48,111 nucleotides of DNA from Clostridia bacterium. Its GTDB lineage: Bacteria > Bacillota > Clostridia > Christensenellales > Aristaeellaceae. This document shows, piece after piece, positions 12,438 to 28,682 of this stretch (positions are counted from its first letter, which is position 1; the number at the start of each line of letters is the position of its first letter). Where the stretch lies: assembly GCA_017448975.1 (NCBI GenBank), contig JAFSKN010000030.1, positions 1 through 48,111 on the forward strand. Direction: 5' to 3'. The notes under the pieces are model-generated. The model was given only the letters and a program-made list of their open reading frames with translations, made no database searches and was not told the DNA's origin. Made by a program: the position numbers and the translations under genes.

Positions 12438-12614
12438 TTGCGAGCAACAGGCATTGTACGCCGTATCGACGAGCTGGGCCGCGTGGTGATCCCCAAAGAA
12501 ATCCGCAGAACCCTGCGCATCCGCGAGGGTGACCCGTCACTGATGGGATTGACACAGATGGAGCAATTTTGCCTTGCCATGATGGATACAGCGGAGAGAT
12601 TTGGGGAAAAATGA
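12438..12614 (+). pseudogene. spoVT: spoVT, interrupted 5' part (SpoVT residues 1-33 plus element-derived tail)
   Basis: The frame encodes MRATGIVRRIDELGRVVIP..., the AbrB-type swapped-hairpin DNA-binding domain of the stage V sporulation regulator SpoVT. I choose the TTG at 12438 because homologues start at this Met and GGAGG is 9 bases upstream; the GTG at 12432 is only 3 bases from it. Homology stops exactly after Gly31-Asp32-Pro33, where the integrated element begins. The following 25 residues come from the element. The missing SpoVT part (starting LEIYTDRDGEVILKKYSPIG) is found 15.69 kb away, fused to the recombinase. The truncated domain is unlikely to bind DNA. Confidence 0.95.
12513..12550 (+). 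other. attL: left junction of the integrated element
   Basis: Chromosomal spoVT sequence lies left of the core GGTGACCCG (12528-12536) and element sequence lies right of it. The element half (12533-12550) is an inverted match, 15 of 18 positions, to the element half at the other end (28203-28220). The core is shared by both junctions and sits in the same reading frame. Confidence 0.92.
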
Positions 12615-12650
12615 GCAAAAACCAACTCGATCTACGAAAGGGGAATGAAT

Positions 12651-12902
12651 ATGGATTTCTATACCGCATTTTATGACATGGACGAAAACCGCGTGTTTGT
12701 TTGGATGACCGATGGGAAGATCATAGCGATTGACTGTACAAAAGTGGAAAACGCCTTTGCTGATAACCTGTATGAACGGTCTGAATTGGATTACCTAATC
12801 TACAACGATCCCATTGCTTATGCGGAATTGATCCTCAATGGAGATGCAGGACGGTATTTGAAAGCGGTAACAGCTTACAAAACGGATGAAGCCCTGATCT
12901 GA
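12651..12902 (+). CDS. Small conserved hypothetical protein (DUF6061-like)
   Basis: The product (83 residues) reads MDFYTAFYDMDENRVFVWMTDGKIIAIDCTKVE... and is compact, acidic and without membrane segments. I have a weak memory of similar small proteins (DUF6061) in Clostridial mobile elements, but no function is known. I prefer the ATG at 12651, 8 bases after AAAGGGG, over the ATG at 12645. A strong terminator follows directly, so it is a single-gene unit at the left end of the element. Confidence 0.7.
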   Translation: MDFYTAFYDMDENRVFVWMTDGKIIAIDCTKVENAFADNLYERSELDYLIYNDPIAYAELILNGDAGRYLKAVTAYKTDEALI

Positions 12903-12909
12903 TCAGCAG

Positions 12910-12942
12910 CCCCCGCGCAAGATCGAGAGCGCGGGGGTTTTT
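12910..12942 (+). terminator. Rho-independent terminator
   Basis: A 9-bp GC stem (CCCCCGCGC with GCGCGGGGG, 10-base loop) is followed by TTTTT. It ends the transcript of the small gene at 12651, and perhaps also of the interrupted spoVT. Confidence 0.9.
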
Positions 12943-12971
12943 GCGTTCAGGAGTTGACACAATAATGACAT

Positions 12972-13020
12972 AATTAAAGCGGCGGTGAACAGCAAAAAAT
13001 CCTGTTCGCAGCCGCTTTAA
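12972..13020. repeat. AAAGCGGCGGT hairpin repeat, copy 1
   Basis: A two-part hairpin: outer stem TTAAAGCGGC with GCCGCTTTAA and inner stem GAACAG with CTGTTC around a CAAAAAATC loop. Two diverged copies lie at 18623-18673 and 18682-18732, all inside the integrated element. The copies keep the motif AAAGCGGCGGT and a GCAAAAA loop. Confidence 0.75.
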
Positions 13021-13082
13021 GCAATTGGACGTATGGAAAGACTATTTATCGGTACAAGGGGATCATTCCCCGCTTTTATAAA

Positions 13083-13436
13083 TCATTTTCGGAATATTTT
13101 TCCAAGCGCGTTCAGGATATCTCTGCCTGTTTTGTGTCTCTGATGAGATGAATCATGCTGACCATCATCCCAATCACGTGTCCAATCCTGCTCTATACGA
13201 ATCCCAGAGTCATCGCTCCGGAATGTATATGTATCTGTTTCTTCAACCCTATACGTATCTTCCGAATCAAAGGACTTATATGATTTGTGGTAAGTCCGGG
13301 ACTGGCCGTCGTAAGCATCCCGGTTCTCTACCAAGGAATGCAGTTGCTCAACCTCGTAATCTTTGTAACGTCCATTTCCCAGATCAATGTGTTCGCTGAT
13401 TTCGGCCTTCAAGCGGCTCTTCTCTTTACGATCCAT
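13083..13436 (-). CDS. Hypothetical protein, third gene of the HTH operon
   Basis: The 117-residue hydrophilic protein is rich in Asp, Arg, Ser and Tyr and has no membrane segment or domain that I recognise. It starts 3 bases after the stop of the preceding membrane protein gene, with AGGAGG before the ATG, so it is translated as part of the same minus-strand operon. Co-occurrence with two HTH-membrane proteins suggests an accessory role in that unit; no function can be assigned. Confidence 0.65.
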   Translation of the reverse strand: MDRKEKSRLKAEISEHIDLGNGRYKDYEVEQLHSLVENRDAYDGQSRTYHKSYKSFDSEDTYRVEETDTYTFRSDDSGIRIEQDWTRDWDDGQHDSSHQRHKTGRDILNALGKIFRK

Positions 13437-13439
13437 GGT

Positions 13440-14033
13440 TTAACCTCCTGTTATTCTTTGGTCTCGTCGTCTTTTTTCTTCGGAAAAGAACGGAACAACT
13501 TTTGTGTTCCACCACTTTTTAACATGAGGTACAGCTTTATAGACTCTGTAGCCGATGCCTGCTAACAAGGCAGCCCCGCCTGCGAAAATACCCGCCACAG
13601 CAAGTCCGCTAAGACCATTCTCAGAATCCGTGGAATCTGAGATGGCGGATTCAGGCTTTTCAATTGGAAACAGATCAGACCGGGATGCACGAAAGGCTAC
13701 ATCGGCTTCAGCACGTTCGGCCTTTATAGCATCCCATTTCAGGCGGCGTGCCTCGGCGACAGCATCACGCACAGCCTGGCAGCTCTCCGGTGAAGTATCA
13801 AGGGCATCTTTGATGCTTTCATCCCACGTCCGCTGTGTCCAGTTACGGTTATACCAGGAATAGCCACCAGGGCCGCGATGGAAGTCGGTTTCCTTTGCAA
13901 ACGGTGCTCCCTTTTCAGTTACAACATACGCACCAGGGGCACCCTCAAGAAATCCCTGATCCTTAAGAAGCTGGTTCATTTCCTGAGAATTCAGGCCAAG
14001 ATCCTCCCCAAGAATACGAGCGCTTTTCCCCAA
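13440..14033 (-). CDS. Antirepressor-like HTH protein with a membrane segment
   Basis: The N-terminal 60 residues (GEDLGLNSQEMNQLLKDQGFLEG...YVVTEKG) resemble the winged-helix part of phage antirepressor proteins (L..G....N..L...G....Y..T.KG). A single hydrophobic helix lies near residues 147-168 (LAVAGIFAGGAALLAGIGYRVY), followed by a basic tail, giving a membrane-bound regulator. The start is a TTG with GGGAGG about 10 bases upstream. It is the middle gene of a three-gene minus-strand operon. Function is inferred only from this architecture. Confidence 0.65.
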   Translation of the reverse strand: MGKSARILGEDLGLNSQEMNQLLKDQGFLEGAPGAYVVTEKGAPFAKETDFHRGPGGYSWYNRNWTQRTWDESIKDALDTSPESCQAVRDAVAEARRLKWDAIKAERAEADVAFRASRSDLFPIEKPESAISDSTDSENGLSGLAVAGIFAGGAALLAGIGYRVYKAVPHVKKWWNTKVVPFFSEEKRRRDQRITGG

Positions 14034-14048
14034 AGTTCTTTAGCCTCC

Positions 14049-14486
14049 CTAATCTTTGTTATGTCCCAGTATTGCAATGAGTGCTGCACTAACCACCACA
14101 CCACTTGCCGCAAGAATAGCTTTCCAAGCGTTAGAAGCGGATTTTCGTTCGCTTGGCTGCTTAACTATGGATGGAGCGAGAAGCTTCGCTTTGGATAAAA
14201 TCTCCGTCCGCTCCGCATCGGTGTAGTCTCCAGGATGATCGACTAATGCATCAATGACGTAGTAAAGCATTTGCGTGTCTTCCTTGGAGGCGGCAATTTC
14301 GTCATCAAGGATTTTCCTTATAGCCAGGTATTGCATCTTGGTCATCTTGTACTTTTCTTCTCCCTGTTCGATGGTGCTGATGGTCTGTCGCTTAACACCG
14401 AGCTTTTCGGCTAACACCGCTGCAGTCCAACCTGCACAGCTTCGAATTAATGCAAGGTTTTTTTGCAGGCGAGGTAGTTCATCCAT
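14049..14486 (-). CDS. Tail-anchored XRE-family HTH protein
   Basis: The 145-residue protein has an XRE-type HTH at 8-50 (WTAAVLAEKLGVKRQTISTIEQGE), a linker, and one C-terminal membrane helix (about 120-142, AILAASGVVVSAALIAILG). It is probably a membrane-tethered DNA-binding protein, leading the three-gene operon. A consensus promoter (TTGACA-17-TATAAT) lies directly upstream. In an integrative element such a protein could be the immunity/excision repressor, but this is inference. Confidence 0.75.
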   Translation of the reverse strand: MDELPRLQKNLALIRSCAGWTAAVLAEKLGVKRQTISTIEQGEEKYKMTKMQYLAIRKILDDEIAASKEDTQMLYYVIDALVDHPGDYTDAERTEILSKAKLLAPSIVKQPSERKSASNAWKAILAASGVVVSAALIAILGHNKD

Positions 14487-14511
14487 GAGGAATTCCCCCT
14501 TTCACAAACAG

Positions 14512-14540
14512 ATTATACACCATCCTTTGCGCTGTGTCAA
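14512..14540 (-). promoter_or_regulatory. Promoter of the tail-anchored HTH operon
   Basis: On the minus strand TTGACA (14535-14540) and TATAAT (14512-14517) are 17 bases apart, a perfect vegetative consensus. The transcription start would fall about 20 bases before the ATG. Confidence 0.9.
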
Positions 14541-14577
14541 TATATCGACATTATGAAAGGAGAAAACAAAAAACAAC

Positions 14578-14774
14578 TTTACCTCCCTGCTCCGCGCGCG
14601 GGACAAACCCAAGGACATCGCAGTGCCGCGCCGACCTTATAATTTGGCACTAATGGAGCCAGGAAAACCGTCAACGCTACCACGGCAATCCAACTTTCCA
14701 CTGTGTATGCCTGCGTTCGGGTGATCTCAGAAATCGTCGCGAGCCTGCCGCTGGGTGTGTACTATTGCCATTAA
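14578..14774 (+). pseudogene. Relic of an HK97-type phage portal protein gene (N-terminus)
   Basis: Two frames together give a portal N-terminus: FTSLLRARDKPKDIAV in the first frame, then after a -1 shift TVNATTAIQLSTVYACVRV followed by ISEIVASLPLGVY, which is the well-conserved first block of Caudovirales portal proteins. A stop follows three codons later. The frameshift and truncation show that it is dead. It indicates that a tailed phage contributed to this element. Confidence 0.8.
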
Positions 14775-14804
14775 GTATTCTCTAAACGCGTTATGTGCTG
14801 AATC

Positions 14805-14829
14805 AGCCGCTTCTTCGGAGGCGGCTTTT
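14805..14829 (+). terminator. Short terminator
   Basis: AGCCGC pairs with GCGGCT around a 10-base loop and is followed by TTTT. It separates the portal relic from the promoter of the ATPase gene. Confidence 0.65.
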
Positions 14830-14865
14830 CATGATGACAACTCACTATGCGAAATCCTTCGCTTT

Positions 14866-14919
14866 AATTTCGCGAAATTGTTGCTTTATTTCGCGAAATC
14901 GGTTATAATAATTTCGCAA
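14866..14919 (+). promoter_or_regulatory. Promoter with TTTCGCGAAA operator palindromes
   Basis: A promoter TTGCTT (14881-14886), 17 bases, TATAAT (14904-14909) carries the palindrome ATTTCGCGAAAT (14888-14899) within its spacer. An identical palindrome with longer arms, AATTTCGCGAAATT, lies just upstream (14866-14879) and a half-site ATTTCGCAAT follows the -10. This is the signature of a strongly autoregulated gene; the MerR-like head of the downstream protein is an obvious candidate binder. Confidence 0.8.
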
Positions 14920-14942
14920 TCCAAGAAGCGAGGTGCGCATTT

Positions 14943-16793
14943 ATGGAGTATATGACGATATCGGAAGCGGCGAGGCAGTGGGGTTTTTCTTCCCGGCGTG
15001 TTCAGCAGCTGTGCAAGGAAGGCGCTGTTGCGGGCGCAAAAAAAGAAGGGCGATCCTGGCTGATTCCGGCGGATACGCAAATGACCGTCAGGACGAAAGC
15101 GATGAACCGCAGGCAGCTTCTTCCCCTGCCGGTCGGGATTTCCAGCTATATTGAAGCTGTGACCAAATACTATTATATCGACAAAACGCTGCTGATCAGG
15201 GACTTGCTCGATTCCCTGCCCAAGGTATCGCTGTTTACAAGGCCGCGACGCTTTGGCAAAACGCTGAACATGGATATGCTGCGCGTTTTCTTTGAACGAA
15301 CGAAAGCGGATACATCCCAATATTTCAAAGAAAAAGCCATCTGGAAATGCGATGATTACTACCAACGCTTTCAAGGGCAATACCCCGTCATCTATCTCTC
15401 GTTCAAGGACGTCAAATATACGACCTGGGAAAACGCCCTCAAAGACATCGCCGCCAATATTCGCGGCGAATATGCCCGCCATCAGGAGCTGGCGGAAAGC
15501 ACTGCCTGCAATACGGTGGAACTGCAAACTTACCAGACAATCGTCACAGGGCAGGCCGATGAAGTCATTCTTTCCCGTTCGTTGGCTGTCCTCTCCGCCA
15601 TGCTTCATAAACACTACGGCATGGAGACCGTGATTATCATTGATGAATACGATACGCCCATCCAGCAGGGTTATACCTGCGGATACTATGATCAGGTGAT
15701 CGGGTTTATCCGAAATCTGTTTTCAGGAGCCTTCAAGGATAATGCGGATCTGGCGTATGGATTCATGACCGGTATCCTGCGGGTAGCAAAGGAAAGCATT
15801 TTCAGCGGCATGAACAACCTGAAGGTCAATACGATCCTGGACGACCGCTACAGCAGCTACTTCGGATTTACGAAAGAAGAAGTTGTCCAAATGCTGGCGT
15901 ATTACGGCAGAGAAGAAAAGCTTGCCGAAGTTTGCGAATGGTATGACGGTTACCAGTTTGGGCAATCAGAGATATTCAATCCCTGGTCGGTCATCAATTA
16001 TGTGGACGACAGCTGCCATCCGAAAGCCTTCTGGCAGTCCACCGGCAGCAATGAAATCATCGGAGAGATCATTGCGCAGGCATCCCCCGCCATCATGGAA
16101 AACCTTCGTCTGCTGATGCAGGGAACACATGTTACGACGTATGTGGATACTGGCGTAATCTATCCGGAAGTCAAAAAGAATCCGTCCAGCATCTACAGTT
16201 TTCTGCTCGTCGCGGGCTATCTTCGCTGCACGGAAATTATCCCGCAGGATGACGGCAATTTCATGTGCCGGGTTTCCATCCCAAACAAGGAAATCTCTTT
16301 CGTATTTTCCAAAGAAATTATTTCCAGGCTGAATACTGTCAGCGCGGAATCCACGGCAGCGGCCATTCAGCAGGCGATCTTCGAGAAAAACACGGATCAA
16401 CTGCGGCAAAGCATAGCGTCCTACCTGACGGAGTCCATCAGCGTCTATGATACGAGCAGTGAAGCATTCTATCAGGGATTGATGATCGGCCTGTGCGCCA
16501 TCCTCAATCACCGGTATGCTGTCCGCTCCAATCGAGAAGCCGGGCTGGGCCGTTTTGATATTCAGCTAGCGCCCATGGATCGGCAGTTGCCAGGCTTCCT
16601 CTTTGAATTAAAAGCGTCAAAGAAAGAAGCCGAGGGGCTGGATGCTCTGGCTGCAAAGGCGCTTGAGCAAATCAAAGAAAAACAGTATATCACAGAAATG
16701 AAAGCAGCGGGAATCAAAGAAATCGTCTTGATTGGCATTGCTTTCCGGGGAAAAGAAGTCGCGCTGATCAGCGAAACCTGTGATGAATGCTGA
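14943..16793 (+). CDS. AAA-ATPase-like / PD-(D/E)XK nuclease protein with N-terminal MerR-like HTH
   Basis: The 616-residue protein joins three parts. Residues 1-50 (MTISEAARQWGFSSRRVQQLCKEG...WLIPAD) form a MerR/excisionase-type winged helix. Residues about 60-340 match the AAA-ATPase_like family, with a P-loop RPRRFGKT and Walker B VIIIDEYDTP. The C-terminus (GRFDIQL...GFLFELKASKK) is the PD-(D/E)XK nuclease of the DUF1703 type. Such proteins are widespread in gut bacteria and are suspected to act in genome conflict; the activity is not established. The HTH head is unusual and fits autoregulation through the palindromes in its promoter. Confidence 0.85.
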   Translation: MEYMTISEAARQWGFSSRRVQQLCKEGAVAGAKKEGRSWLIPADTQMTVRTKAMNRRQLLPLPVGISSYIEAVTKYYYIDKTLLIRDLLDSLPKVSLFTRPRRFGKTLNMDMLRVFFERTKADTSQYFKEKAIWKCDDYYQRFQGQYPVIYLSFKDVKYTTWENALKDIAANIRGEYARHQELAESTACNTVELQTYQTIVTGQADEVILSRSLAVLSAMLHKHYGMETVIIIDEYDTPIQQGYTCGYYDQVIGFIRNLFSGAFKDNADLAYGFMTGILRVAKESIFSGMNNLKVNTILDDRYSSYFGFTKEEVVQMLAYYGREEKLAEVCEWYDGYQFGQSEIFNPWSVINYVDDSCHPKAFWQSTGSNEIIGEIIAQASPAIMENLRLLMQGTHVTTYVDTGVIYPEVKKNPSSIYSFLLVAGYLRCTEIIPQDDGNFMCRVSIPNKEISFVFSKEIISRLNTVSAESTAAAIQQAIFEKNTDQLRQSIASYLTESISVYDTSSEAFYQGLMIGLCAILNHRYAVRSNREAGLGRFDIQLAPMDRQLPGFLFELKASKKEAEGLDALAAKALEQIKEKQYITEMKAAGIKEIVLIGIAFRGKEVALISETCDEC

Positions 16794-16918: not shown

Positions 16919-18493
16919 TTGAATGAACCATCGGATTTTGGAAAATACTTAAAAGAAAAAAGACTTAGCATTGGAATTAATCAAACTCAATTGGCAGCAT
17001 ATATCAACAAAACTGGTCAATATATTAGCAATATTGAAAAAGGCAAAAACAACGCCCCCCCCCCGATAAAATGGTGTACGGTTTCGCTTAGCGATGTTAT
17101 TAATCGTGGGAATCGGCTTGAAGCCAGTGTATTTGATGTTGAGGCAAAGCAAGCTTGGGAAACAATCCGAAAAGGGAAATATCCTCTTACTACTATTGGC
17201 GGACCGGATGGGATGGCAACATCTTATACATGTGCAAGGTTTAAACGAATATGGGTAGAAGAATCGGACTATCCTATTTATCAACCATCTACAATTATGG
17301 ATATTAAACCTACCCCGGATGGGTATATATCACGACTGACCGAAACAAACATTGAAGGGCTTCGTGTATCAAAAGGGCAGGTATTAATGACATGTTCAGG
17401 CACCATAGGTAAAGTTTCATATGTGTCCGATACTCTGGATCATTTGATATTTAGTCATGATCTGCTTCGGATCAACTGCAAAAAAGAACAAGATTCCGGT
17501 TATGTATATACATATTTGAAAAGCAGAATTGGTAATAAGATTCTTTTGACCAACAGCTATGGTGCGGTTATTACGCACATTGAGCCGGAACATTTAGCAA
17601 ACGTTCCTATCCCTAATGCGCCGAAATCAATCAGGGCAAAAATTCATTCTTTAGTTCTCCAATCCTTTACATTGCGCGATGAATCAAATAAACTGATTGA
17701 TGAAGCAACCAAAATATTAATGGATGAATTGCACCTTCCCCCAATAAATAAATTTGAAGTTGATGATTATAAAAAAGGGGCTTCTGTCGAAACATTCAAC
17801 GTAAAGTTAAGCAATCTGGCAGGACGAGCTGATGCATCTTATCATCTACCTATTGAGTATATAGCAAATCAGACAAATCGGTTTCGGCAATACATGATTA
17901 ATTTAATCGATTCAGAAAGCTCTGAAGGCATTTCCTATCGTGAAAGTATTGCTAAACTACATGAATCTTTGTTGGATGCCGCCATTACCTCGCAAGAGTA
18001 CAGAGGAGCAAGAACTTCCGTTTCTTTTTCGGAGGTTCCTATTAAGAATAGCAATACTCATAACAGAATAGTATATATGGGAATAATGTATGATTGCTCT
18101 TTTGCTCATGGTTTAATTACAACTAATGTGACAAATACAAAAAACAATAATATTCTATTCAATTATCAAGCGGAATACAATGAAGATGATATAAAGAGTC
18201 AATCTGATTTTCAACACTTAACAAGTGTTAGACAAGAAAAATGCTTAAACTGCTATAAAGAGCTAAACCCATACAAAATTGAAAGTGTTTTGCTGCAAGG
18301 TGAAAACTGTAAAAAAATTGGAGCGTACAGCTTTGTAAACGATTCGAGAAGAATAAGTCAAGCAATAATTACAATTCTATACTTATTGCGTTGTTGCCTT
18401 GCACACGGAGATATATCTCCGGATGAAGCAGCTAATGAGGTATATAAATATGCATATGAAATCATATGTCCACCCTTAAAAAAATTGCGATAA
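16919..18493 (+). CDS. XRE-HTH / HsdS-like target-recognition / HEPN-like fusion protein
   Basis: The 524-residue protein appears to fuse three modules. Residues 1-46 are an XRE HTH (LSIGINQTQLAAYINKTGQYISNIEKGK). After a run of ten C bases (17055-17064, coding Ala-Pro-Pro-Pro) comes a type I restriction specificity half-subunit (about 50-300): KWCTVSLSDVI...RLEASVFDVEAKQA, GGPDGM, YPIYQPST, LLTNSYGAVITHIEPEHL. The C-terminal 200 residues are not a second recognition domain; they end in ILYLLRCCLAHGDISP, an Rx4H motif as in HEPN ribonucleases. The start is TTG after GGGGAG. No methylase or HsdR gene is adjacent. The AT-rich composition marks it as recent cargo, probably a defence or toxin protein. 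Confidence 0.75.
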   Translation: MNEPSDFGKYLKEKRLSIGINQTQLAAYINKTGQYISNIEKGKNNAPPPIKWCTVSLSDVINRGNRLEASVFDVEAKQAWETIRKGKYPLTTIGGPDGMATSYTCARFKRIWVEESDYPIYQPSTIMDIKPTPDGYISRLTETNIEGLRVSKGQVLMTCSGTIGKVSYVSDTLDHLIFSHDLLRINCKKEQDSGYVYTYLKSRIGNKILLTNSYGAVITHIEPEHLANVPIPNAPKSIRAKIHSLVLQSFTLRDESNKLIDEATKILMDELHLPPINKFEVDDYKKGASVETFNVKLSNLAGRADASYHLPIEYIANQTNRFRQYMINLIDSESSEGISYRESIAKLHESLLDAAITSQEYRGARTSVSFSEVPIKNSNTHNRIVYMGIMYDCSFAHGLITTNVTNTKNNNILFNYQAEYNEDDIKSQSDFQHLTSVRQEKCLNCYKELNPYKIESVLLQGENCKKIGAYSFVNDSRRISQAIITILYLLRCCLAHGDISPDEAANEVYKYAYEIICPPLKKLR

Positions 18494-18750: not shown

Positions 18751-20184
18751 ATGATCGGGCGGGAAAAAGAAGTTAAGGAACTGAACAAGCTGTATGACAG
18801 AAACCGTGCGGAGCTGATAGCTGTTTACGGAAGACGCCGCGTCGGAAAAACCTACTTGATCGACGAAACCTTTGCGGGCAGGATCACTTTCCGTCACGCC
18901 GGGCTTTCCCCGGCAGATGAAGACGCGAAAGGTCTGCTTCGGGCGCAGTTGGATCATTTTTGCAATTCATTGATTCTTTTCGGCATGGAGAAAAGCAGTA
19001 AGCCGGATAACTGGCTGGATGCCTTTCTGCTGCTGGAACAATTTCTGCAAAAAAAGGACGACGGATCACGGCAGCTTGTATTTCTGGATGAATTGCCCTG
19101 GCTGGACACACCGCGGTCAGGGTTCATCCGGGCTTTTGAAGGGTTCTGGAATAACTGGGGATGCCATCGGAAGAATCTGATGGTCATCGTATGCGGCAGC
19201 GCAAATTCCTGGATGATGAACAGCCTGATCAATAATCACGGCGGCCTGTATAATCGGGTCACTTATGAAATCAAGCTCGCTCCCTTCACACTGCGGGAAT
19301 GTGAAGCGTTCTTCCAGGCAAACAATATCAGGTTTTCGAGATACGATATTGCCCAGAGCTACATGATCTTTGGCGGTATTCCGTATTATCTGGGGTATTT
19401 TGACGGCGAATATAGCCTGGCTCAGAATGTGGACAGGATGATCTTTGCCAGAAACGCAAAGCTGAAGGATGAATATGACAGGCTGTACCAATCGGTGTTT
19501 ATCAACCCGGATACGGAAAAAACCATCGTCACATTTTTGGCGACGCGCAATGCCGGCTATACCAGAAAAGAAATCGCCGAAAAGCTCGGCTTATCCGATG
19601 GAGGCAGACTGTCCAAGAATCTGAATGCGCTGATCGCCAGTGATTTTGTTGTGAAATATGTGCCCTTTGGCATGGGAAAGCGTGAGGAACACTATAAAGT
19701 CGTTGATCCCTTCTGCCTGTTCTATCTGCATTTTGCCCAGGAGATAAACGGTGGCAGCGAAGCCTTCTGGCAGGAGAACGTGACAGCCCAACCCGTTGTC
19801 ACCTGGCGGGGCTTGGCTTTTGAACATGTTTGCTTTAATCACATTCTCCAGATCAAAAAGGCGCTGGGCATTTCCGGCGTTATCACCTCTGCCTCCGCAT
19901 GGTCCAAACGGGAGGACGATCAGGAAGGAACACAAATTGATTTGCTGCTGACCCGGAATGATAACGTTCTGAATATGTGTGAAATCAAGTACTATGGCGG
20001 TAAATTCACCGTAAAAAAGGACGATTACCTGACGCTGCTCGGAAGGCAGGAAATTCTGATGGGCAAAGTAAGCCCCAAAATGACGATTCGCAGTACGCTT
20101 ATCACCACATATGGGCTGACGCAAAATGAATACAGCGGGGTATTTACCAATGTAATCACATTGGATGATTTATTCGCTGAATAG
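18751..20184 (+). CDS. Archaeal-type AAA+ ATPase with winged helix and DUF234-like nuclease domain
   Basis: The 477-residue protein begins with an archaeal-ATPase P-loop (ELIAVYGRRRVGKTYLI) and Walker B (LVFLDELPWLDT), followed by the sensor region VIVCGSANSWM. A winged helix lies near 270-310 (YTRKEIAEKLGLSDGGRLSKNLNAL). The C-terminus (GTQIDLLLTRNDNVLNMCEIKYY) is the DUF234 PD-(D/E)XK-like domain. These solitary STAND-like proteins are common on mobile elements; a role in DNA cleavage or defence is suspected, not shown. The ATG lies 20 bases after hairpin repeat copy 3. Confidence 0.88.
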   Translation: MIGREKEVKELNKLYDRNRAELIAVYGRRRVGKTYLIDETFAGRITFRHAGLSPADEDAKGLLRAQLDHFCNSLILFGMEKSSKPDNWLDAFLLLEQFLQKKDDGSRQLVFLDELPWLDTPRSGFIRAFEGFWNNWGCHRKNLMVIVCGSANSWMMNSLINNHGGLYNRVTYEIKLAPFTLRECEAFFQANNIRFSRYDIAQSYMIFGGIPYYLGYFDGEYSLAQNVDRMIFARNAKLKDEYDRLYQSVFINPDTEKTIVTFLATRNAGYTRKEIAEKLGLSDGGRLSKNLNALIASDFVVKYVPFGMGKREEHYKVVDPFCLFYLHFAQEINGGSEAFWQENVTAQPVVTWRGLAFEHVCFNHILQIKKALGISGVITSASAWSKREDDQEGTQIDLLLTRNDNVLNMCEIKYYGGKFTVKKDDYLTLLGRQEILMGKVSPKMTIRSTLITTYGLTQNEYSGVFTNVITLDDLFAE

Positions 20185-20211: not shown

Positions 20212-21207
20212 TTGAAAGAATATAAACTGATTGCCCCAGATATTGACCGCCTTCTTCTCTTTTTTGACCGCGGGCACATCAATCCATCCATCCCCTCCAA
20301 GGCGCTGGTCACGGCAATGGAACCGTTATTCTCCATGCTTTCTGATCTTGCTCCGATGGAGAACAATGAAGAAGTAAAGACGATTTGGCTGCAGATCCCC
20401 CGAGGCAGCATGGATGATTATGACCGCTATGAGGATTTATTGGAGTATGGAGAAATAAAAACAAGAGATGAATACAAAGCCCGTTGGCTCGATGATTATC
20501 CCAATGAAGTAAAATGGTATCGGCTGGTACTTGTGGAATCGCATAACAAAAACCATGAACTCAGTTTCCGCGGCGTCTCACTGGACAATAAAATGATTAT
20601 CAGTGCGGAACTGGATCGGAACGAAGGTCCCTCGTCCTCCGTATTTACTGAAGAAGCCGCAGTAGCGCTTTGCGCTCTGATAGCGAATGCTGCTGCTGTA
20701 TCTATGGGGAAAGTCAGGGAGGGAACATATAATGAGGATGTCAATGCGCATCTTCCTTACTGGTTCCGCACAGGGGTCATCAAACGAAACATATTATGGG
20801 AAAACGACCCGGCATGGAAAGAGGATGCGTTGGATGGATTGAGTGCTGAGACCGTCACCGAATTCAGAAAACTCTTGGATAGCGGTGCTAATGAGCCAGA
20901 TAAGATAGGAAGAATAACAAGTTTTACCGCCAATGATTTCTTTCGTGCATGTGCCTGTGGCTATCGTGCGCTCGATTATGATTGCGGCACGCTCTCGCCA
21001 TCTGCGCTTTATCTTCGCTACGCCGATGGCAGAGATGAAGGACTTACGGGAACAGGACACGGACTAAACGAAGGCCCGGGTATTGATTTTAATGACCCTG
21101 CCGCTTGGGATGTGTGGTTTTTCAGCCAGCGTGGTGGAGGGCATCCCTGGGAAGTGGTTCGTGGCGGAAACAGCACACATGTCGATCTTTTTGTGTGCCA
21201 TGATATC
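20212..21207 (+). pseudogene. 3'-truncated gene of unknown function
   Basis: The frame starts at a TTG after GGAAGGA and encodes about 332 residues with conserved-looking blocks (RGGGHPWEVVRGGNSTHVDLFVCHD at the end). I do not recognise the family. Convincing coding ends at GATATC (21202-21207). Beyond that, the frame runs on to 21825 only as the antisense of the sigma-like gene, so the formal 537-residue product is a chimera. The natural C-terminus seems to have been lost in a rearrangement that fused two convergent genes. Confidence 0.6.
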
Positions 21208-22011
21208 GCTGACCCGGCCGCAGCGCATGCAGATGGCATTGCGTTTTTCCAGCAGCATCTGATCCCGGAAGGACAGGCTTCGGAAAGCCTTATCGATTTT
21301 CTCCGCTTCTATGCCGTCTTCAAGAATGCTGACATAGTCCCACTCGTCCGGCAGCAGTTCTTCATAAGGTTCTTCCTCATCGTCCTCTTCATTGAATTCC
21401 GGCAGAAGCCTGTTGCGCTGCTCCCAGGCCGCTTTCAGCTTTTCTGCCGCTGTTTCTTCCGTGCAGCCATATTTTTTCGCATAGATCCGGATAGTTGCAT
21501 TGGTGTTCCCTTTGCAGTCGTTATAGATCAGCATAATTTGCCGGGCAGACTTGTAATCATACAGGGAATCAAAGGAATAGTTTTCCTCCGTCATGCGATT
21601 GCGCAGCATGGCGTCCGTGAGGAAATGACGCATATAGGTGAGAAAAGACGCGCCACGATTTGGATCATATTCCTGAAAACGGCGGAGCACTTCCATCCGG
21701 CACGCGAGCTTCAGATCCATGAGACGGTACGGCGAATAAGGGCCGGGTTCACGGCTCAAAAAGCCATGGACACGCACATTGAAATACCACTCTTTTTCGT
21801 GGAGATAAAAGAAGATGTATTTTAGCTCCCGGGTTTCCTGCGCCAGGCGGATGTAATCGTTCACATCGCAGCCTTTGATCTTAGGCGGGGAGGGGATCAG
21901 CTGATACGCGCTTTCCGCATCCTCGATCGTCAGCATTTGCCGCTGTGCCTGGGATGCCCGCGGCATATGTCCTTCCAAATCCCAGGAATAATCCTTCAGT
22001 ATCTGTTCCAA
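21064..22011 (-). CDS. Sigma-70 region 2-like protein, 3'-truncated
   Basis: Residues about 80-150 (LMDLKLACRMEVLRRFQEYDPNRGASFLTYMRHFLTDAMLRNRM) match sigma-factor region 2 (core binding and -10 recognition); a weaker region 4-like part follows (AFRSLSFRDQMLLEKRNAICMRCGRVSD). Homology should stop at the GATATC junction (21202-21207); the last 46 codons are antisense to the truncated plus-strand gene. The start is TTG with GGAGG 5 bases upstream. It follows the DUF6076 gene with a 12-base gap in the same operon. Similar sigma-like proteins occur in Clostridial plasmids; the truncated form may be inactive. Confidence 0.65.
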   Translation of the reverse strand: MEQILKDYSWDLEGHMPRASQAQRQMLTIEDAESAYQLIPSPPKIKGCDVNDYIRLAQETRELKYIFFYLHEKEWYFNVRVHGFLSREPGPYSPYRLMDLKLACRMEVLRRFQEYDPNRGASFLTYMRHFLTDAMLRNRMTEENYSFDSLYDYKSARQIMLIYNDCKGNTNATIRIYAKKYGCTEETAAEKLKAAWEQRNRLLPEFNEEDDEEEPYEELLPDEWDYVSILEDGIEAEKIDKAFRSLSFRDQMLLEKRNAICMRCGRVSDIMAHKKIDMCAVSATNHFPGMPSTTLAEKPHIPSGRVIKINTRAFV

Positions 22012-22023
22012 TGTTTCCTCCGT

Positions 22024-23145
22024 TTATGTCATCAGCCGCTGAGCTTCGGCTTTCAGCGCATTTTGCTCCATTTCTTTCAGGTAGGAGCCTTTTGCATAAT
22101 CAAGATCGGCCAAGGCACGCTGCTTTTTATCTTTTGCCAGCTTTTTCATGGCGTCAGCCAATTCTTTGCTCAATGTGCCGCGCCGCAGGCATTGGTCAAT
22201 AGTGTTCATGCGGCGGTTATAAGGAATAATCAGCGGATGATCGGCTGCCTTTTCCCGTTCATCTCGTCCGTTCATGTTCCCGATCACCCGGCACTTGCGG
22301 CCCTTGGGATCAGTGACGCAGATTTCACCGCAATACTTCGTGCGCCGGGCGTCTGTTGTCAGAAACCACCGGCCGCAGATGGCGCAGCGTTTCAGGGCAT
22401 GGCCTACGGATAAACCCTCAAAAAAGTCAGCCCGCAGCATCCCACCGAAGGAAAGAAAGTGCATGTGCTTTTGCATCTGCATATGACCATTATCCGGTGC
22501 TGGGGCTGCTGTATACTGCACGGTCACGTTCGCCATAGACATCCAGGAATCTGTGCCGTCCCCGATCAGGAAGTTCTTGGGGAAGGATTGGCTGAATTGG
22601 GTCAGGTAGGCTTCTTTCGTGCGGGGCTGATCCTCTGTATCCAGCTTTTCGGCAAAGGGAGAAATATGCGCCTGGAGCATGGTGATCGCGTCATAATAGT
22701 TGGCCATCGTCGGGGCCAGCGCCAGTAAAACCTGGGTCGGAATATACTTCTTTTTTGCTTCCTCATTCATCTTTTCGTTCTGCACGATATTGCTGAACGC
22801 CCGGATCTTTTTGAAGGCGTCCACCGTAAATGCCTGATCCAGCCGTTGATCCAATTCCGGCATGTCGAGGAAAGTGAAGGGCTCATGCTTCGCAATCAGC
22901 TTTAGCTGCGGATGGGCAGCCAGCCCGGCGCTGCTTATAGCGGTTTTATCCACTACGCCGGTATGAAACATGGTGTTGACTGCGGCAACTCGTTTACACA
23001 ACGGCAGCGCTTCTTCCAAGGATTCTTTGGGGATATTCAGCGCCATGCAGGCAATCGCTCCGGCAGGCAAAACCCGATCCCTGTATTGAACGGTATCGTC
23101 CGCATAAATCAAAGTGGTTATCTCGGCTTCTTTTTTCGTGTTCAT
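22024..23145 (-). CDS. DUF6076-type protein with a CGR-like zinc motif
   Basis: The 373-residue protein has a C-terminal cysteine cluster (RCAICGRWFLTTDARRTKYCGEIC...RKCR), suggesting a zinc-binding knuckle, followed by a charged helical tail. I associate this layout with DUF6076 proteins of gut Firmicute mobile elements; function unknown. I start at the ATG at 23145, which has GGAGAA 7 bases upstream; the open frame extends further but without support. It heads an operon with the sigma-like gene. Confidence 0.75.
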   Translation of the reverse strand: MNTKKEAEITTLIYADDTVQYRDRVLPAGAIACMALNIPKESLEEALPLCKRVAAVNTMFHTGVVDKTAISSAGLAAHPQLKLIAKHEPFTFLDMPELDQRLDQAFTVDAFKKIRAFSNIVQNEKMNEEAKKKYIPTQVLLALAPTMANYYDAITMLQAHISPFAEKLDTEDQPRTKEAYLTQFSQSFPKNFLIGDGTDSWMSMANVTVQYTAAPAPDNGHMQMQKHMHFLSFGGMLRADFFEGLSVGHALKRCAICGRWFLTTDARRTKYCGEICVTDPKGRKCRVIGNMNGRDEREKAADHPLIIPYNRRMNTIDQCLRRGTLSKELADAMKKLAKDKKQRALADLDYAKGSYLKEMEQNALKAEAQRLMT

Positions 23146-23243
23146 GTCTTTTCTCCACAATACGAATATTTGTTCCCTTTCCACCTGCATTATACAGCAT
23201 CTTTTCCAAAAAGAAAAGCCCCGTCGTGTTTTTTCTTTTTGGC

Positions 23244-23446
23244 CTTGTCGGGCGATTTTCATGTTTTTGACGAATTTCAACATAATAATAGTGAGGGAAA
23301 AACGAAAACCTGAAAAAGATGATGACAGGATGCCGCTGATCATACGTTTGTGATCGTATGCTTCATCGGTCTGTCATGTTGATCGATTCCGTCTTGTCAG
23401 CCTTTTTTCATGGTTTTTGGATTTTTCAACATAATTATAGTGAGGG
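23244..23446. repeat. Paired ~54-bp direct repeats upstream of parM (parC-like)
   Basis: Two similar units (23244-23297 and 23392-23446) share CTTGTC, TTTTCATG, TTTTTG and the block TTTCAACATAATNATAGTGAGGG. Between them is a hairpin CATACG-8-CGTATG (23341-23360). Direct repeats just upstream of an actin-type partition operon are the normal form of a parC centromere, where ParR binds. They could alternatively be promoter duplications. No gene is visible in 23146-23584. Confidence 0.65.
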
Positions 23447-23584: not shown

Positions 23585-24520
23585 ATGATTGAACTGAAAA
23601 GGAAACCCATTCTCATTCCGATTGACCACGGCTACGGCAACGTCAAAACGCCCAACTTCATTTTCCCCACCGGCATCACGGAATACAAAGAAGAACCGGC
23701 CATGTCCACGGATACCCTTCGCTGGGCTGGCCGCTGGTATGCCATCGGAGACACCCACAAAGAATTTATCGCCGACAAAACGGCAGACGAGGACTATTTG
23801 AAGCTGACCATGGCAGCCATTGCCAAGGAACTGAAACTGCGTGGGCTGACCGAAGCACCGGTTTATCTGGCCGTGGGCTTACCTCTGACCTGGGTGGGCC
23901 AGCAGAAGGACAGCTTCATCCGGTATCTGACTCAGGTGCGGAACCTGGAATACACCTTCAACGGAAAAGACTACGACGTGGAGATCGTGGGCGTGGAAAT
24001 GTTCGCCCAGGGTTTCGCCGCTGTGGCGGATCGCCTGAAAGAGTTCACCGGGGTAAACATGCTCTGCGATATCGGCAACGGCACCATGAATATTATGTAC
24101 ATCAACAACGGGCGGCCCATCAGTGGCCAGTGCTACACGGAGAAATTCGGCACCCATCAATGCATGTTGGCAGCTCGGGAAGCGCTGATGCGAACGCTGC
24201 ATTTGAAGGTGGATGACAGCATCATCGAACAGGTGCTCCGCACCGGCGCGTCTGACGTGGACGAAAAGGTGGTGACCATCATCCGGGATACCGCAACGAA
24301 CTATGTGGCTGGGATCATGCGCAGCCTGCGGGAGCATGAGTACAACCCCATGCTGATGAAGCTGTGGTTCATGGGCGGCGGTGCTTGCCTGATCCGGCAT
24401 TTCGGGCCCCTTGATCCCAACCGGATCATCATCCTGGACGATATCAAAGCCACGGCCAAGGGCTATCAACGGCTGGCTGTCAAGGCGCTCCGGAAACGGG
24501 GTGTTTCCTTTGAAGAATGA
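23585..24520 (+). CDS. parM: ParM/StbA-like actin-family plasmid segregation ATPase
   Basis: The 311-residue protein has the actin/Hsp70 fold signatures: phosphate-1 loop IPIDHGYGNVKT near the start, phosphate-2 CDIGNGTMNIMYI, and adenosine motif WFMGGGACLI. ParM polymers push apart sister plasmids. The next gene is a ParR-like adaptor overlapping by 11 bases, and direct repeats lie upstream, so a complete type II partition cassette is present. Its survival suggests that the excised form of the element is, or was, a replicating circle. Confidence 0.88.
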   Translation: MIELKRKPILIPIDHGYGNVKTPNFIFPTGITEYKEEPAMSTDTLRWAGRWYAIGDTHKEFIADKTADEDYLKLTMAAIAKELKLRGLTEAPVYLAVGLPLTWVGQQKDSFIRYLTQVRNLEYTFNGKDYDVEIVGVEMFAQGFAAVADRLKEFTGVNMLCDIGNGTMNIMYINNGRPISGQCYTEKFGTHQCMLAAREALMRTLHLKVDDSIIEQVLRTGASDVDEKVVTIIRDTATNYVAGIMRSLREHEYNPMLMKLWFMGGGACLIRHFGPLDPNRIIILDDIKATAKGYQRLAVKALRKRGVSFEE

Positions 24521-24839: not shown

Positions 24840-24883
24840 AGGTGATACCAAAGCGGCATCAGAAGCGCGAATCCACAAAAATG

Positions 24884-24909: not shown

Positions 24910-24920
24910 GTGGCCGGATG

Positions 24921-25119: not shown

Positions 25120-25152
25120 CGGGAATCCAAAGGGCAGCGCCCGTGGCCCAGT

Positions 25153-25192: not shown

Positions 25193-25277
25193 TCGAAAAT
25201 CTCAGGTGCCGGGGAACGGAAGTTACTCTGCGCAAAAAGAAGACTGCCACGAAAACAGAAGAAACGGAGGTGACGCC

Positions 25278-25991
25278 ATGCCCGAAACCAAACAGCGGGT
25301 GTCCCGTCACAATGGCCGCGCGGGGAAGCACGGCGTCTATAACCCCAAGCACAACGACCGGCAATTCGACGTAAACCATGCGGACAACATCGACAAAAGC
25401 CGGACGAGCATGAACCTCTACGGCGGCAAAGCCAACCGGGATAAGAATGATTATATCATCGAAGCCCAACGGGAGAAGATCGCCGAGCTGGAACGGCGCA
25501 ATGCCGAGCTGACAGCGGACAACGAGGCCCAGAGCCGGATCATCGCCCAGAAAACGGCGGAATTGGAGGACAAGCTGGAAAAGCTCTCCGATGCAGACAC
25601 GACACTGGATGAAGTGGCCGATGTTGCATACAGGGAGGCGGTCAAGGTCGTTGCAGCCAAGGCCATCCAAGAAACGCAGAAGCAAGACCTGATGGTTCTG
25701 GAAAAAGGTAAGCAACAGGTCATGTCCCCGGAGATCAAAATGAAGCAAAAAGACCGGGAGCTTGTGGTGGAGTGGTTTGAAAAAGCAGCCAATACCCTGA
25801 AAAAGAAAGCCAAATCGTTTTTTGAAAAGGTCGTCGAAGCGCTCCACCTGCCCACTACCAGGGAAGCAGCCAAAGAGAAAATCAAAGAGCAGGCTAAACC
25901 GTCGATTTATGAATTGCTGCGAACTTACAAGCAGAAATCCCAGGAGACACAAACACGGAAACCAAGGCAGCATAGCTGGGAAGAAAGATAA
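25278..25991 (+). pseudogene. Internally deleted Mob/Pre-type relaxase
   Basis: The N-terminus (VSRHNGRAGKHGVYNPKHNDRQFDVNHADNID) is the start of a Firmicute MobL/plasmid recombination relaxase and the remainder (from about residue 57) is the long coiled-coil C-terminal part (DYIIEAQREKIAELERRNAEL...). The histidine-rich catalytic core that should lie between them, some 250 residues, is missing, while the frame stays open over 237 residues. The ATG has GGAGG upstream, so a coiled-coil protein is probably made, but it cannot nick DNA. It shows that the element was once mobilisable. Confidence 0.72.
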
Positions 25992-26081
25992 AACGAAAAA
26001 CAGAAACCGTTTAAGTCCCATTGACAGAGCCATTGACCCGCCGATGCGAAAGCGTATATTCATCAGCGTGTTTCTTTTCCG

Positions 26082-26111
26082 GGGAGCCGTCCCGCGTGAC
26101 GGCTCCCTTTT
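26082..26111 (+). terminator. Rho-independent terminator after the relaxase relic
   Basis: A 10-bp stem GGGAGCCGTC/GACGGCTCCC with a 6-base loop is followed by TTTT. Confidence 0.92.
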
Positions 26112-26174
26112 ATAAAACGGAATTCAAAAGTATAGAAAACCTGAATTGGAAAATAATGAGAAAGGAGGTACTCC

Positions 26175-26441
26175 ATGAAGATAGAAGTATTTGACGGAAA
26201 AAAGCTGGTTTGCGTTTGGTTATCCCATAAAGATCAGAATGATCCCGCTTTGCAGGAGAGACTTAAGCCTTTGTACCAGGAATATAAGCAGAAGAAATAT
26301 CTCGTCTCTGTTTTTTTCTCAGGGCATGAGGATATCGAGGAATTGACACGGGATTTGCTCCAATATAACCGGAAAAAGATCGAGGAAGACAGTATCGCCG
26401 CTGAAAGGAAGAAAAAGAAATCCTACGAAATGGCACTTTGA
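26175..26441 (+). CDS. Small hypothetical protein upstream of the recombinase
   Basis: The 88-residue charged protein (MKIEVFDGKKLVCVWLSHKDQNDPALQERLKPLYQEYKQKKYLVSVFFSG...) has an alpha/beta N-terminus and a lysine-rich helical tail; I do not recognise a family. A near-perfect AAAGGAGGT precedes the ATG. Small genes of this size often sit beside large serine recombinases and include recombination directionality factors, so that role is a testable inference, nothing more. Confidence 0.7.
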   Translation: MKIEVFDGKKLVCVWLSHKDQNDPALQERLKPLYQEYKQKKYLVSVFFSGHEDIEELTRDLLQYNRKKIEEDSIAAERKKKKSYEMAL

Positions 26442-26443
26442 GC

Positions 26444-26472
26444 TTGCATTTCCCAAAAACATATGATACAAT
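26444..26472 (+). promoter_or_regulatory. Promoter of the recombinase gene
   Basis: TTGCAT (26444-26449), 17 bases, TACAAT (26467-26472), about 35 bases before the TTG start codon. In the integrated state this promoter also transcribes the 3' part of spoVT. Confidence 0.82.
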
Positions 26473-26507
26473 ATCGTCTGTAAATACAAAGGAAGGAGGA
26501 AACGAAA

Positions 26508-28682
26508 TTGATAGAGCGTTTTTCCATCGCCGGATATGCCCGCATTTCGGTAGATGAGGAACTGGATCGGGATAATACGTCCATCGAAAATCAAAAGGCG
26601 ATTATCACGGATTTTGTCAAGACCAGGTTTCCCGACAGCGAGCTTACGTTTTTTGAAGATCGGGACAAATCGGGTTATACCTTCGAGCAGCGGCCCGGGT
26701 ATCAGCGCATGCGCCGGATGCTGATGGAACACAAATTCGATATCCTGATCGTGAAGGATTTTTCACGTTTCTCCCGCCGGAACAGCCGGGGATTGGTGGA
26801 GCTGGAGGATTTGCGGGACGCGGGCATCCGCATCATTTCCATCGGCGATAACGTGGACTATCCCAACGACGATGAGTGGCTGAAAATCCAGTTTCAGTTT
26901 TTGATCAACGAAATGCCGGTGACCGATACCTCCAAGAAGGTGCGGGCGGTGGTCAAGCGCCGCCAGGAGGACGGCAAATGGATCTGCGCCGCGCCTTATG
27001 GGTACATCGTCAACGCCCGGCAGGAATTTGAGCTGGTGCCCACCGAAGCGGATATCGTGCGGAAAATTTTTCAGCTGTATATCGACGGCTGGGGTTACAA
27101 GCGCATCGCCAATTACCTGACTGATGAACTCATTCCCACGCCCCGGATGGAGGAACGCACTCGGGCGGAAGCCCAGGGGAAGGAATACCGACGGGAGGTC
27201 AAGCCCGAATGGGCCATCGTAACGATCCAGGGCATTCTTTCCAACGATTTCTATATTGGCACCCTGCGGCAGGGAAAGTATTACCGCAAAAAGATCAACG
27301 GCAGGGACGTGAAGAAAGACGTCGATGAGCATATCGTGATCGAGAATCATCATCATCCCATCCTCGACTACCGCACCTTCGCCACCGCCAAGGCGCTGAT
27401 GGAGAAGCGCACAACCACCGATTACCGAGGCGTCAAGAAGTACGAAAACAACTACTCCGGCTTCCTGAAATGCGGAGACTGCGGATCGCCCATGTTTACC
27501 ATGAGCAAGCCGGGCTCTCAGGAGGCCTACCGCTGCGGGCTGTATCACCGGCGGGGACTCAAGGGCTGCACCAGTCATTTTGTGAAAACGGCCACCCTGG
27601 ATCAGGTGCTGAAAACCTATCTGCGCAAGGTGCGGGATGGCTCCCAGGCCATGCTGGACCGGCTCAACGCCGACATTCAGAAGCAGGACAGCGATTTGGA
27701 AGAAACGGCAGTCAGCGTAACCCATTTGCAGGAAACGCTGGACAATTTGCAGGAGGAACTGAAAGCCACCAAGCGCCAGCGGGTTCGAGACCTGATGAAG
27801 CACCCGGAGCAGGAAGCTGTATTGGAAGAAACCTACGACGAGATGGAAACCGATCTGGTGAACCGGATATCCGGCTTACAGGCCCAGATCACCCTGACGG
27901 AGGATAAACGCAACCTGATCATCCGGGTGAACCGCAAAGCGAAAACGGCCATGGAGGTTTTTGACGATATCCTGAACAAGGATCATCTGGATTCCCGGGA
28001 CCTGAACCTGATCATCGATCAGATCATTATTTTCGAGGATCATATCGACGTAAAGCTCAAGGCCGATATCGACACGCTGCTGAAAACCGGCGAGCTGCCA
28101 AACGCCCAGGAGGAGGACGCCGCAAATTTTAAAACCGGCACAGAAGGCATGGTCACTCTTGTCCAGCGGGCCAAAAACACCCGGGACAAGGTCTTCTGTG
28201 TCAATACCATCAGCGACGGTGACCCGCTGGAAATTTACACAGACCGGGACGGAGAAGTGATTTTGAAGAAGTATTCCCCCATTGGGGAAATGAGTTCCTT
28301 TGCCAAGGACTACACGGAATCGCTGTTCCGGTCCCTGGGGCATATCGCGTGCATCGTGGATCGGGACCAAGTGGTGGCGGCCAGCGGCGTGAGTAAAAAA
28401 GAGCTGTGGGACAAACCCATCAGCCCCGATCTGGAAAGCGCCATTCAGGCGCGGCAGACGGTGAGCAGCAACCGCACGGGCGGCGGCAAGATCGTGCCCG
28501 TGACCAACGAGGAGGACGTGTCCGGCTACACGGCCCAGGTGGTGTCTCCCATCATCGCGGACGGGGAGGCCATCGGCGCGGTGCTGCTGCTTTCCCGGGA
28601 ACAGGGGGCCCGCATGGGCGATACGGAAATCAAGGTGGCGGAAACGGCGGCGGGCATTGTGGGCCGCCAGATGGAACAGTAA
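26508..28682 (+). CDS. Large serine recombinase fused in frame to SpoVT C-terminal domain
   Basis: The 724-residue frame starts at a TTG after GGAGG. Residues 1-150 are the resolvase catalytic domain (GYARIS with Ser14 as nucleophile; RDKSGYTF; KDFSRFSRR). Then come the recombinase domain (about 165-275), a zinc ribbon (CGDCG...C...C, about 323-352) and a coiled coil (about 375-445). Recombinase sequence ends near Gly571-Asp572-Pro573. From Leu574 to Gln724 it is SpoVT: LEIYTDRDGEVILKKYSPIG plus the GAF-like domain ending AAGIVGRQMEQ. The switch coincides with the attR core. In the excised circle the recombinase would instead end with the 25 residues encoded at 12537-12611 (598 residues in all). 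Confidence 0.95.
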   Translation: MIERFSIAGYARISVDEELDRDNTSIENQKAIITDFVKTRFPDSELTFFEDRDKSGYTFEQRPGYQRMRRMLMEHKFDILIVKDFSRFSRRNSRGLVELEDLRDAGIRIISIGDNVDYPNDDEWLKIQFQFLINEMPVTDTSKKVRAVVKRRQEDGKWICAAPYGYIVNARQEFELVPTEADIVRKIFQLYIDGWGYKRIANYLTDELIPTPRMEERTRAEAQGKEYRREVKPEWAIVTIQGILSNDFYIGTLRQGKYYRKKINGRDVKKDVDEHIVIENHHHPILDYRTFATAKALMEKRTTTDYRGVKKYENNYSGFLKCGDCGSPMFTMSKPGSQEAYRCGLYHRRGLKGCTSHFVKTATLDQVLKTYLRKVRDGSQAMLDRLNADIQKQDSDLEETAVSVTHLQETLDNLQEELKATKRQRVRDLMKHPEQEAVLEETYDEMETDLVNRISGLQAQITLTEDKRNLIIRVNRKAKTAMEVFDDILNKDHLDSRDLNLIIDQIIIFEDHIDVKLKADIDTLLKTGELPNAQEEDAANFKTGTEGMVTLVQRAKNTRDKVFCVNTISDGDPLEIYTDRDGEVILKKYSPIGEMSSFAKDYTESLFRSLGHIACIVDRDQVVAASGVSKKELWDKPISPDLESAIQARQTVSSNRTGGGKIVPVTNEEDVSGYTAQVVSPIIADGEAIGAVLLLSREQGARMGDTEIKVAETAAGIVGRQMEQ
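28203..28237 (+). other. attR: right junction of the integrated element
   Basis: Element sequence lies left of the core GGTGACCCG (28218-28226) and spoVT sequence lies right. The element half-site AATACCATCAGCGACGGT (28203-28220) is the inverted partner of the half-site at attL. The likely crossover dinucleotide is the GA at 28221-28222, matching GA at 12531-12532. Confidence 0.92.

Follow-up and report, generated by a model that had tools for sequence, protein, structure and literature searches.

Two pieces of the sporulation gene spoVT lie 15.7 kb apart in a stretch of 48,111 bases, hereafter the window, from contig JAFSKN010000030.1 of a Clostridia bacterium (assembly GCA_017448975.1). Codons 1-33 (12438-12536) are separated from the last 151 codons, and the nine-base core GGTGACCCG, present in exactly two copies in the whole window, is found at 12528 and 28218 in identical strand and frame. 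Directly repeated cores flank the intervening element, which interrupts a sporulation gene. Joining the halves at the core yields a single open frame of 186 residues, starting from an in-frame GTG at 12432, or of 184 residues from a TTG at 12438, and this joined frame corresponds to a normal SpoVT. An earlier note on this DNA had placed the cut after codon 33, with the rest of the gene downstream at the same nine bases, and had derived a continuous 184-residue SpoVT from removal of one core; both statements hold at the base level, the latter from the TTG start. Three SpoVT-family matches were found in the genome itself, namely the two window pieces, at 61 and 189 bits, plus a short sequence resembling a paralogue, and no intact spoVT was found in this draft assembly, which is 85% complete and comprises 80 contigs. 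The features of the split gene and of its junctions are as follows.

12349..12431, + strand: stretch upstream of spoVT, conserved in the compared intact and stub loci of the genus (blastn matches start near 12349 in both locus types)
12438..12536, + strand: 5' part of spoVT, codons 1-33, likely TTG start at 12438, GTG at 12432 also in frame (TIGR02851 positions 1-32, 61.4 bits; MazE/AbrB-type N-terminus)
12528..12536, + strand: left attachment site (attL) core GGTGACCCG, putative crossover dinucleotide GA
12537..12614, + strand: conserved integrase C-terminal tail SLMGLTQMEQFCLAMMDTAERFGEK and stop, which here forms the 3' end of the SpoVT stub open reading frame (ORF) (ungapped 26-codon block in 45/45 tails; ratio of nonsynonymous to synonymous substitution rates, dN/dS, 0.13-0.24)
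26508..28217, + strand: large serine integrase (int) body with resolvase, recombinase and zinc ribbon (Pfam; serine 14 of YXRXS invariant in alignments A1 and A4)
28218..28226, + strand: right attachment site (attR) core GGTGACCCG
28227..28682, + strand: 3' part of spoVT, 151 codons and stop, in frame with int (Pfam SpoVT_C, 149.5 bits; TIGR02851 positions 26-180, 189 bits; PDB 2w1t match over residues 567-724)

Reciprocal in-frame fusions at the element ends

At the right end of the element, the large serine integrase is fused in frame to the SpoVT C-terminal domain within a 724-residue ORF (26508-28682), in which Pfam domains occur in the order resolvase, recombinase, zinc ribbon and SpoVT_C. 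This ORF continues across the core into spoVT. At the left end, the SpoVT stub likewise continues across the core into the integrase tail, such that a 60-residue ORF from 12432 consists of SpoVT 1-33 and then 25 foreign residues. When the element ends are rejoined, the integrase terminates in the same approximately 25 residues now found on the SpoVT stub, and the rejoined site (attP) is a palindrome, centred in the core, with an 84% match over 25-bp arms. The joined spoVT site (attB) in the window contains no palindrome, the best value being 50%. As the integrase regains the foreign residues and the join is palindromic, attP lies inside the integrase gene, and integration exchanges C-termini in frame.

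The catalytic serine, S14, is invariant among the 8 aligned proteins of A1 and the 20 of A4, and the integrase matches YokA in the PDB over residues 51-458 (E 2e-20). A structural model of the stub (mean predicted local distance difference test score, pLDDT, of 70; predicted template modelling score, pTM, of 0.33) suggests, at low confidence, that the tail forms a C-terminal helix spanning residues 39-54, while the model of the fusion had a mean pLDDT of 63 and a pTM of 0.37, scores at which domain placement is unreliable. The proposal of the earlier note that spoVT is interrupted by an element whose exact excision would restore the gene is supported, the element being site-specific and encoding a serine recombinase. 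The element and the restorable frame stand, but the note had overlooked the integrase-SpoVT_C fusion, the position of attP in int, the exchange of tails and the breadth of the family.

Attachment sites and integrase tails across the family

In ten elements from relatives for which both ends were available, including that of the window, the core position, its frame and the best palindrome centre base were all identical. Across 45 rows of left and right ends, the attP arm match averaged 0.70, versus 0.40 for attB and 0.31 for shuffled sequences, with 36 of the rows exceeding the best of 9000 shuffles (0.625), and the central dinucleotide was GA in every row. Seven of these rows derive from three genomes with two or three stubs, in which at most three of the seven pairings can be correct; the rows exclude two full stubs (L172 and L179) that the pattern missed, the degenerate L181, and L182, which stops at the core. 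In some elements, the cores at the left and right ends are not the same at a third codon position, as would be expected if a match were needed only at the 2-bp crossover. A palindromic attP, a dissimilar attB and a putative 2-bp crossover are consistent with a large serine recombinase. As the split recurs at the same codon in other genomes and the rejoined element end is palindromic, a chance split can be ruled out.

Starting from GDP, 26 codons align without gaps in 45/45 tails, with a consensus of approximately GDPSQTTLxxWERFCFGMLDLAKRMG. Tail codons 11-26, which lie outside the attP arm, had a dN/dS of 0.13-0.24 among pairs up to 40% different, while in two shifted frames the proportion of nonsynonymous differences (pN) was at least equal to that of synonymous differences (pS). 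Since purifying selection acts on the tail in its own frame only, the tail is a genuine protein terminus and most likely belongs to the integrase. The N-terminal SpoVT sequence is kept in 42 stubs from varied hosts. The stub alignment comprised 41 stubs, omitting L047 and L055, and the stub pattern left out six other stub loci, of which two have full length, three are either truncated or degenerate, and one is interrupted by the end of its contig.

Breadth of the family and movement between hosts

A scan of 84,980 species genomes with integrase alignment A1 identified 430 relatives, and the analysis retained the best 80; among these, contig titles include Oscillospiraceae, Flavonifractor, Oscillibacter, Butyricicoccus, Flintibacter and others. 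Viral contigs gave eight matches and phage records two, the latter at 50-66% identity. In total, 86 relatives were read (80 genome, 4 viral and 2 phage loci; the other four viral loci were 28-31% identical or an 87-residue match), and the integrase runs in frame into spoVT in 81 of them. L079, L100, L147 and L153 stop at contig ends before the junction, and L087, which carries a different tail, lies beside lepA at its 3' end; the genome of L087 has an intact spoVT. The L087 locus represents a near-identical integrase type at a secondary site. L153 (MT839487.1) was considered as a closed circle and rejected, as the two ends do not fit together and a terminal repeat was not found. The N-terminal half of spoVT was in none of the genome loci within the 10 kb fetched, and stubs were retrieved separately.

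The spoVT state was determined in 41 genomes of the best-80 loci, which were chosen for carrying the integrase. In 40 of them, spoVT was present only in split form, and the 41st, with the lepA insertion, has an intact spoVT; a full-length stub was found in 33 of the 40 split genomes. Cultured carriers with full-length stubs include Butyricicoccus pullicaecorum DSM 23266 (stub L188, right end L132) and Flavonifractor sp. An100 (stub L185, right end L121). Among 29 genomes of the same genus, own genome included, spoVT was intact in 14, split in 13 and neither in 2, and the former provide the empty sites in relatives that the earlier note had proposed to look for. None of the 11 integrase-bearing genomes among 100 examined (own included) had an intact spoVT. 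That the arrangement is an artefact of assembly or binning might be entertained given that the window comes from a draft, incomplete genome, but we regard this as practically negligible: these junctions recur in many other genomes, among them named isolate records and the 3-contig genome G053, and 19 elements of 7.0-80.8 kb were found on single contigs between directly oriented halves.

Trees built from 76 integrase bodies and from their attached SpoVT_C domains, in a set containing one identical pair (L068 and L052), are in conflict, with 31 of 52 supported integrase splits at odds with supported SpoVT_C splits. L124 and L141 illustrate this, with integrases 93% identical and SpoVT_C domains only 38% identical. 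This conflict indicates that the fusion is made anew in different hosts. The GC content of the window element, 48.6%, differs from that of its flanks (59.1% and 57.4%). In principle, the integrase-SpoVT_C fusion could be a domesticated, stable chimeric protein in which excision plays no part. A fusion frame open in 81/86 relatives and purifying selection on the fused SpoVT_C would be consistent with domestication; however, a fusion remade in different hosts, together with conservation of the attP palindrome, the catalytic serine and the tail, cargo that differs among the examined elements, and intact spoVT being common in close relatives, makes it very improbable.

Continuing selection on spoVT and traces of both states

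In same-genus genomes, the dN/dS of SpoVT_C was 0.045 for 12 split genes versus 0.040 for 14 intact genes, a comparison that leaves out the partial sequence of G015. Because the split genes are under purifying selection as strong as that on the intact ones, a parasite that blocks late sporulation, one of the possibilities raised in the earlier note, is less likely. In C. difficile, spoVT is described as being under sigma-F and sigma-G control, and its mutant as lacking heat-resistant spores (cited passages of PMC3789822). Given this mutant phenotype, a permanent split of spoVT should be costly to a spore former. The sporulation gene sigG scored above cut-off in the own genome, and spoIVA did so in the split relatives G001, G002, G007, G009, G015 and G017, with partial matches in G016 and G018 and no match in the own genome, G004 or G011.

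Several assemblies contain contigs of more than one kind at the site. An intact-spoVT contig and a stub contig of G041 are identical over their first 141 bp and diverge exactly after GGCGACCC; in G129, a contig ending at the core overlaps an attL contig by exactly 55 bases, the mark of an assembly-graph branch whose second branch was not seen; and in G123, two contigs agree over 131 bases before running into two different left ends of elements. A sample in which the site is occupied in some cells and empty, or occupied differently, in others would account for these contigs. Some copies look decayed. L193 (G139), L181 (G129) and L159 are 5'-truncated stubs starting near codon 10; L193 and L181 have a common upstream junction, CTTGACAT...GGGA, a pattern that L159 does not match. 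In G004, two stubs lie 1.6 kb apart at L039 (G004:C9), each with spoVT upstream sequence and an element left end, while two stubs occur in G113 (L165, L166) and three in G123 (L174-L176), and in G023 (L053) left-end sequence is found upstream of the stub.

A probable reversible exchange of C-termini

We favour a reading in which a mobile island integrates at one spoVT codon with a reciprocal, exactly reversible exchange of tails, and put its probability at roughly 0.78. Its grounds, as read from sequence, are the split, the reciprocal in-frame fusions, the attP palindrome, the recurrence, the selection on the tail, the movement from host to host and the continuing selection on spoVT. A dedicated large serine integrase would insert the genomic island at a single codon of spoVT (GGN GAC CCG; REGDP|LEI). 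As attP, in the 3' part of the integrase gene, is in the reading frame of the target, a single crossover would exchange the C-termini: the integrase would lose its conserved, putatively helical tail of approximately 25 residues and gain the SpoVT C-terminal GAF-type domain, and the N-terminal 33 residues of SpoVT would gain the integrase tail. The exact reverse reaction would rebuild both genes together. Excision in at least some cells or lineages is, in our view, quite probable, and a tie between excision and sporulation is more tentative, with slightly less than even odds.

The principal competing explanation is an ordinary island for which spoVT is a conserved landing site, with SpoVT inactivated and no developmentally useful excision; carriers would be spore-defective, and splits would be retained because they arose recently or because life in the gut does not require sporulation. 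Several results weigh against the reading that we favour, and some of them support this alternative. No circle was seen in the contig searches: a 22-base attP pattern, which misses divergent attP forms, was found in 0/396 genomes of the order with one mismatch allowed, and in exact form was absent from viral contigs. The G041 bin lacks an integrase and its intact contig is unbroken on the C side, so that a strain mixture explains G041 as well as excision does, and the G041, G129 and G123 contigs together do not separate excision from strain variation. L159, the only stub found in Flintibacter muris (G105), is without codons 1-9, and exact excision there would therefore not restore spoVT; G012 has a frameshifted stub (L061) beside an intact spoVT, G127 has a partial stub match with a stop, and no stub was found in 5 of the 40 split genomes. 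The surplus stubs in some genomes are not explained, our guess being that elements carry spare attB sites. At the attachment sites, 9 of 45 attP rows score at or below 0.625, two of them 0.42 and 0.46, and mispaired ends still reach 0.66, so the arms are a motif common to the family that marks site type and not a pair-specific match. spoIVA was not found in the own (incomplete) genome, and the selection test would have little power if every insertion were recent. The C. difficile mutant phenotype makes a permanent block plausible as well. Against the landing-site explanation stand the near-equal dN/dS of split and intact SpoVT_C, the N-terminal sequence retained in the 42 stubs, and the split gene being the only copy in 40 of the 41 genomes chosen for the integrase, and we consider it decidedly unlikely.

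Cargo of the element

The remaining annotated genes between the spoVT halves in the window are as follows.

12645..12902, + strand: DUF6061 protein (Pfam, 102 bits)
14049..14486, - strand: helix-turn-helix (HTH) regulator (Pfam HTH_31/HTH_3)
14943..16793, + strand: predicted AAA-ATPase with a PD-(D/E)XK domain and N-terminal HTH (Pfam AAA-ATPase_like, PDDEXK_9)
16919..18493, + strand: HTH and type I specificity-like protein (Pfam HTH_3, Methylase_S; PADLOC specificity models)
18751..20184, + strand: ATPase of candidate phage-defence family PDC-S27 (PADLOC PDC-S27, 627.6 bits)
21064..22011, - strand: weakly sigma-factor-like protein (weak PHROG and NCBIfam matches, E about 1e-3)
22024..23343, - strand: DUF6076 protein (Pfam, 162.6 bits)
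23585..24520, + strand: ParM/actin-like partition protein (Pfam ALP_N; PHROG 691 partition protein, 115 bits)
26175..26441, + strand: 88-residue ORF directly upstream of int, candidate accessory or directionality factor (homologues in 72/91 loci, with three duplicated contigs counted among the 91)

The strong PDC-S27 match suggests that the element carries defence cargo, and it is conceivable that the sigma-factor-like protein regulates excision genes. The 88-residue ORF had no Pfam, PHROG or NCBIfam match; that it encodes the recombination directionality factor is a guess, and a doubtful one. In some elements (L132, L134, L104, L112 and others), an ORF of approximately 340 residues, presumably of the RhuM family, lies upstream of int and overlaps its start. 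Cargo is unlike between elements, with the PDC-S27 ATPase, the AAA-ATPase with a nuclease domain and the ParM-like protein in the window, and a type I restriction system and a HipA-like protein in the element of G001. A prophage was rejected, as no phage structural gene was found among the 10 element ORFs scanned with PHROGs, and so was an integrative conjugative element, as no relaxase or transfer gene was found among the window-element ORFs scanned with Pfam.

Discussion

Elements that intervene in sporulation genes include skin in sigK, SP-beta in spsM, vfbin in spoVFB, gin in gerE, yin in yabG and phi3T in kamA (PMC10747680, PMC5595907, PMC8270828). The spoVT element resembles them in that a sporulation gene is divided, with a short direct repeat at the break, by a foreign element that has a serine recombinase, and precise excision would rebuild the gene; it also resembles gin, as the cited passages describe it, in having no phage genes among the scanned ORFs. 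It differs from them in that its excision is inferred from sequence, and in that its target is a forespore regulator, whereas five of the six listed targets, all but kamA, are mother-cell genes according to the cited passages, spoVFB being placed there through the statement that dipicolinic acid is made in the mother cell. The known elements are discardable because the mother cell dies; with a forespore target, excision would be inherited by the spore, which leaves the element three fates: re-insertion, persistence as a circle, or loss. In the cited accounts, the attP of SP-beta lies between sprA and sprB, unlike here, where attP is placed inside the integrase gene and integration would swap domains. 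Resolvase, Recombinase and zinc-ribbon domains are those of SP-beta SprA/YokA and other large serine recombinases, from which the integrase of the spoVT element differs in bearing a C-terminal SpoVT domain when integrated.

Attachment sites within coding genes also have precedents. In myxophage Mx8, attP is located within int, integration gives int a new 3' end, and a reversible covalent switch of activity has been proposed (cited passages of PMC6070905). The sequence of the spoVT element shares with Mx8 an attP inside the int ORF and a new 3' end upon integration. The Mx8 integrase is of the tyrosine type, whereas here a serine integrase gains a conserved host sensory domain as its tail, the host gene receives the integrase tail, and the target is a sporulation gene. 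Mycobacteriophage BPs provides a case of integration-dependent immunity in which attP lies in a coding gene and replacement of a C-terminal tail changes the protein (PMC4557955); there, in the passages cited, the repressor is altered through loss of a degradation tag, unlike here, where the integrase itself changes. In searches of the open-licence PubMed Central literature, we found no paper describing spoVT as the target of such an element, which agrees with the earlier note. Intervening elements and switches with attP in int are thus known; what is new, to the extent of these searches, is their combination, the target and the breadth.

In C. difficile skin, the recombinase is described as being made in all cells, with a mother-cell-specific directionality factor deciding the outcome (cited passages of PMC5025042). 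By this logic, a forespore-specific directionality factor could trigger excision of the spoVT element, and the fused SpoVT domain may alter integrase activity, in the manner of integration in Mx8. Directionality can be controlled by engineered fusions of serine integrases (PMC5737554), of which the spoVT integrase fusion would be a natural counterpart. A further, speculative and unlikely extension is a host-wired directionality switch, in which integration would give a forespore-responsive, excision-competent integrase and spoVT would cycle between split and joined states in each spore generation. Excision in the forespore would then rebuild SpoVT, let the spore mature and give the integrase back its integration tail; the circle would travel in the spore, held by the ParM-like protein in elements that encode one, and re-insert at germination.

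On the reading that we favour, the reciprocal in-frame exchange of tails would be a natural serine-integrase version of a reversible covalent switch. The hundreds of related integrases (430 matches in one scan), with their conserved site, could serve as recombination tools. In many gut genomes, spoVT will be scored as absent or pseudogenised, though it may be restorable.

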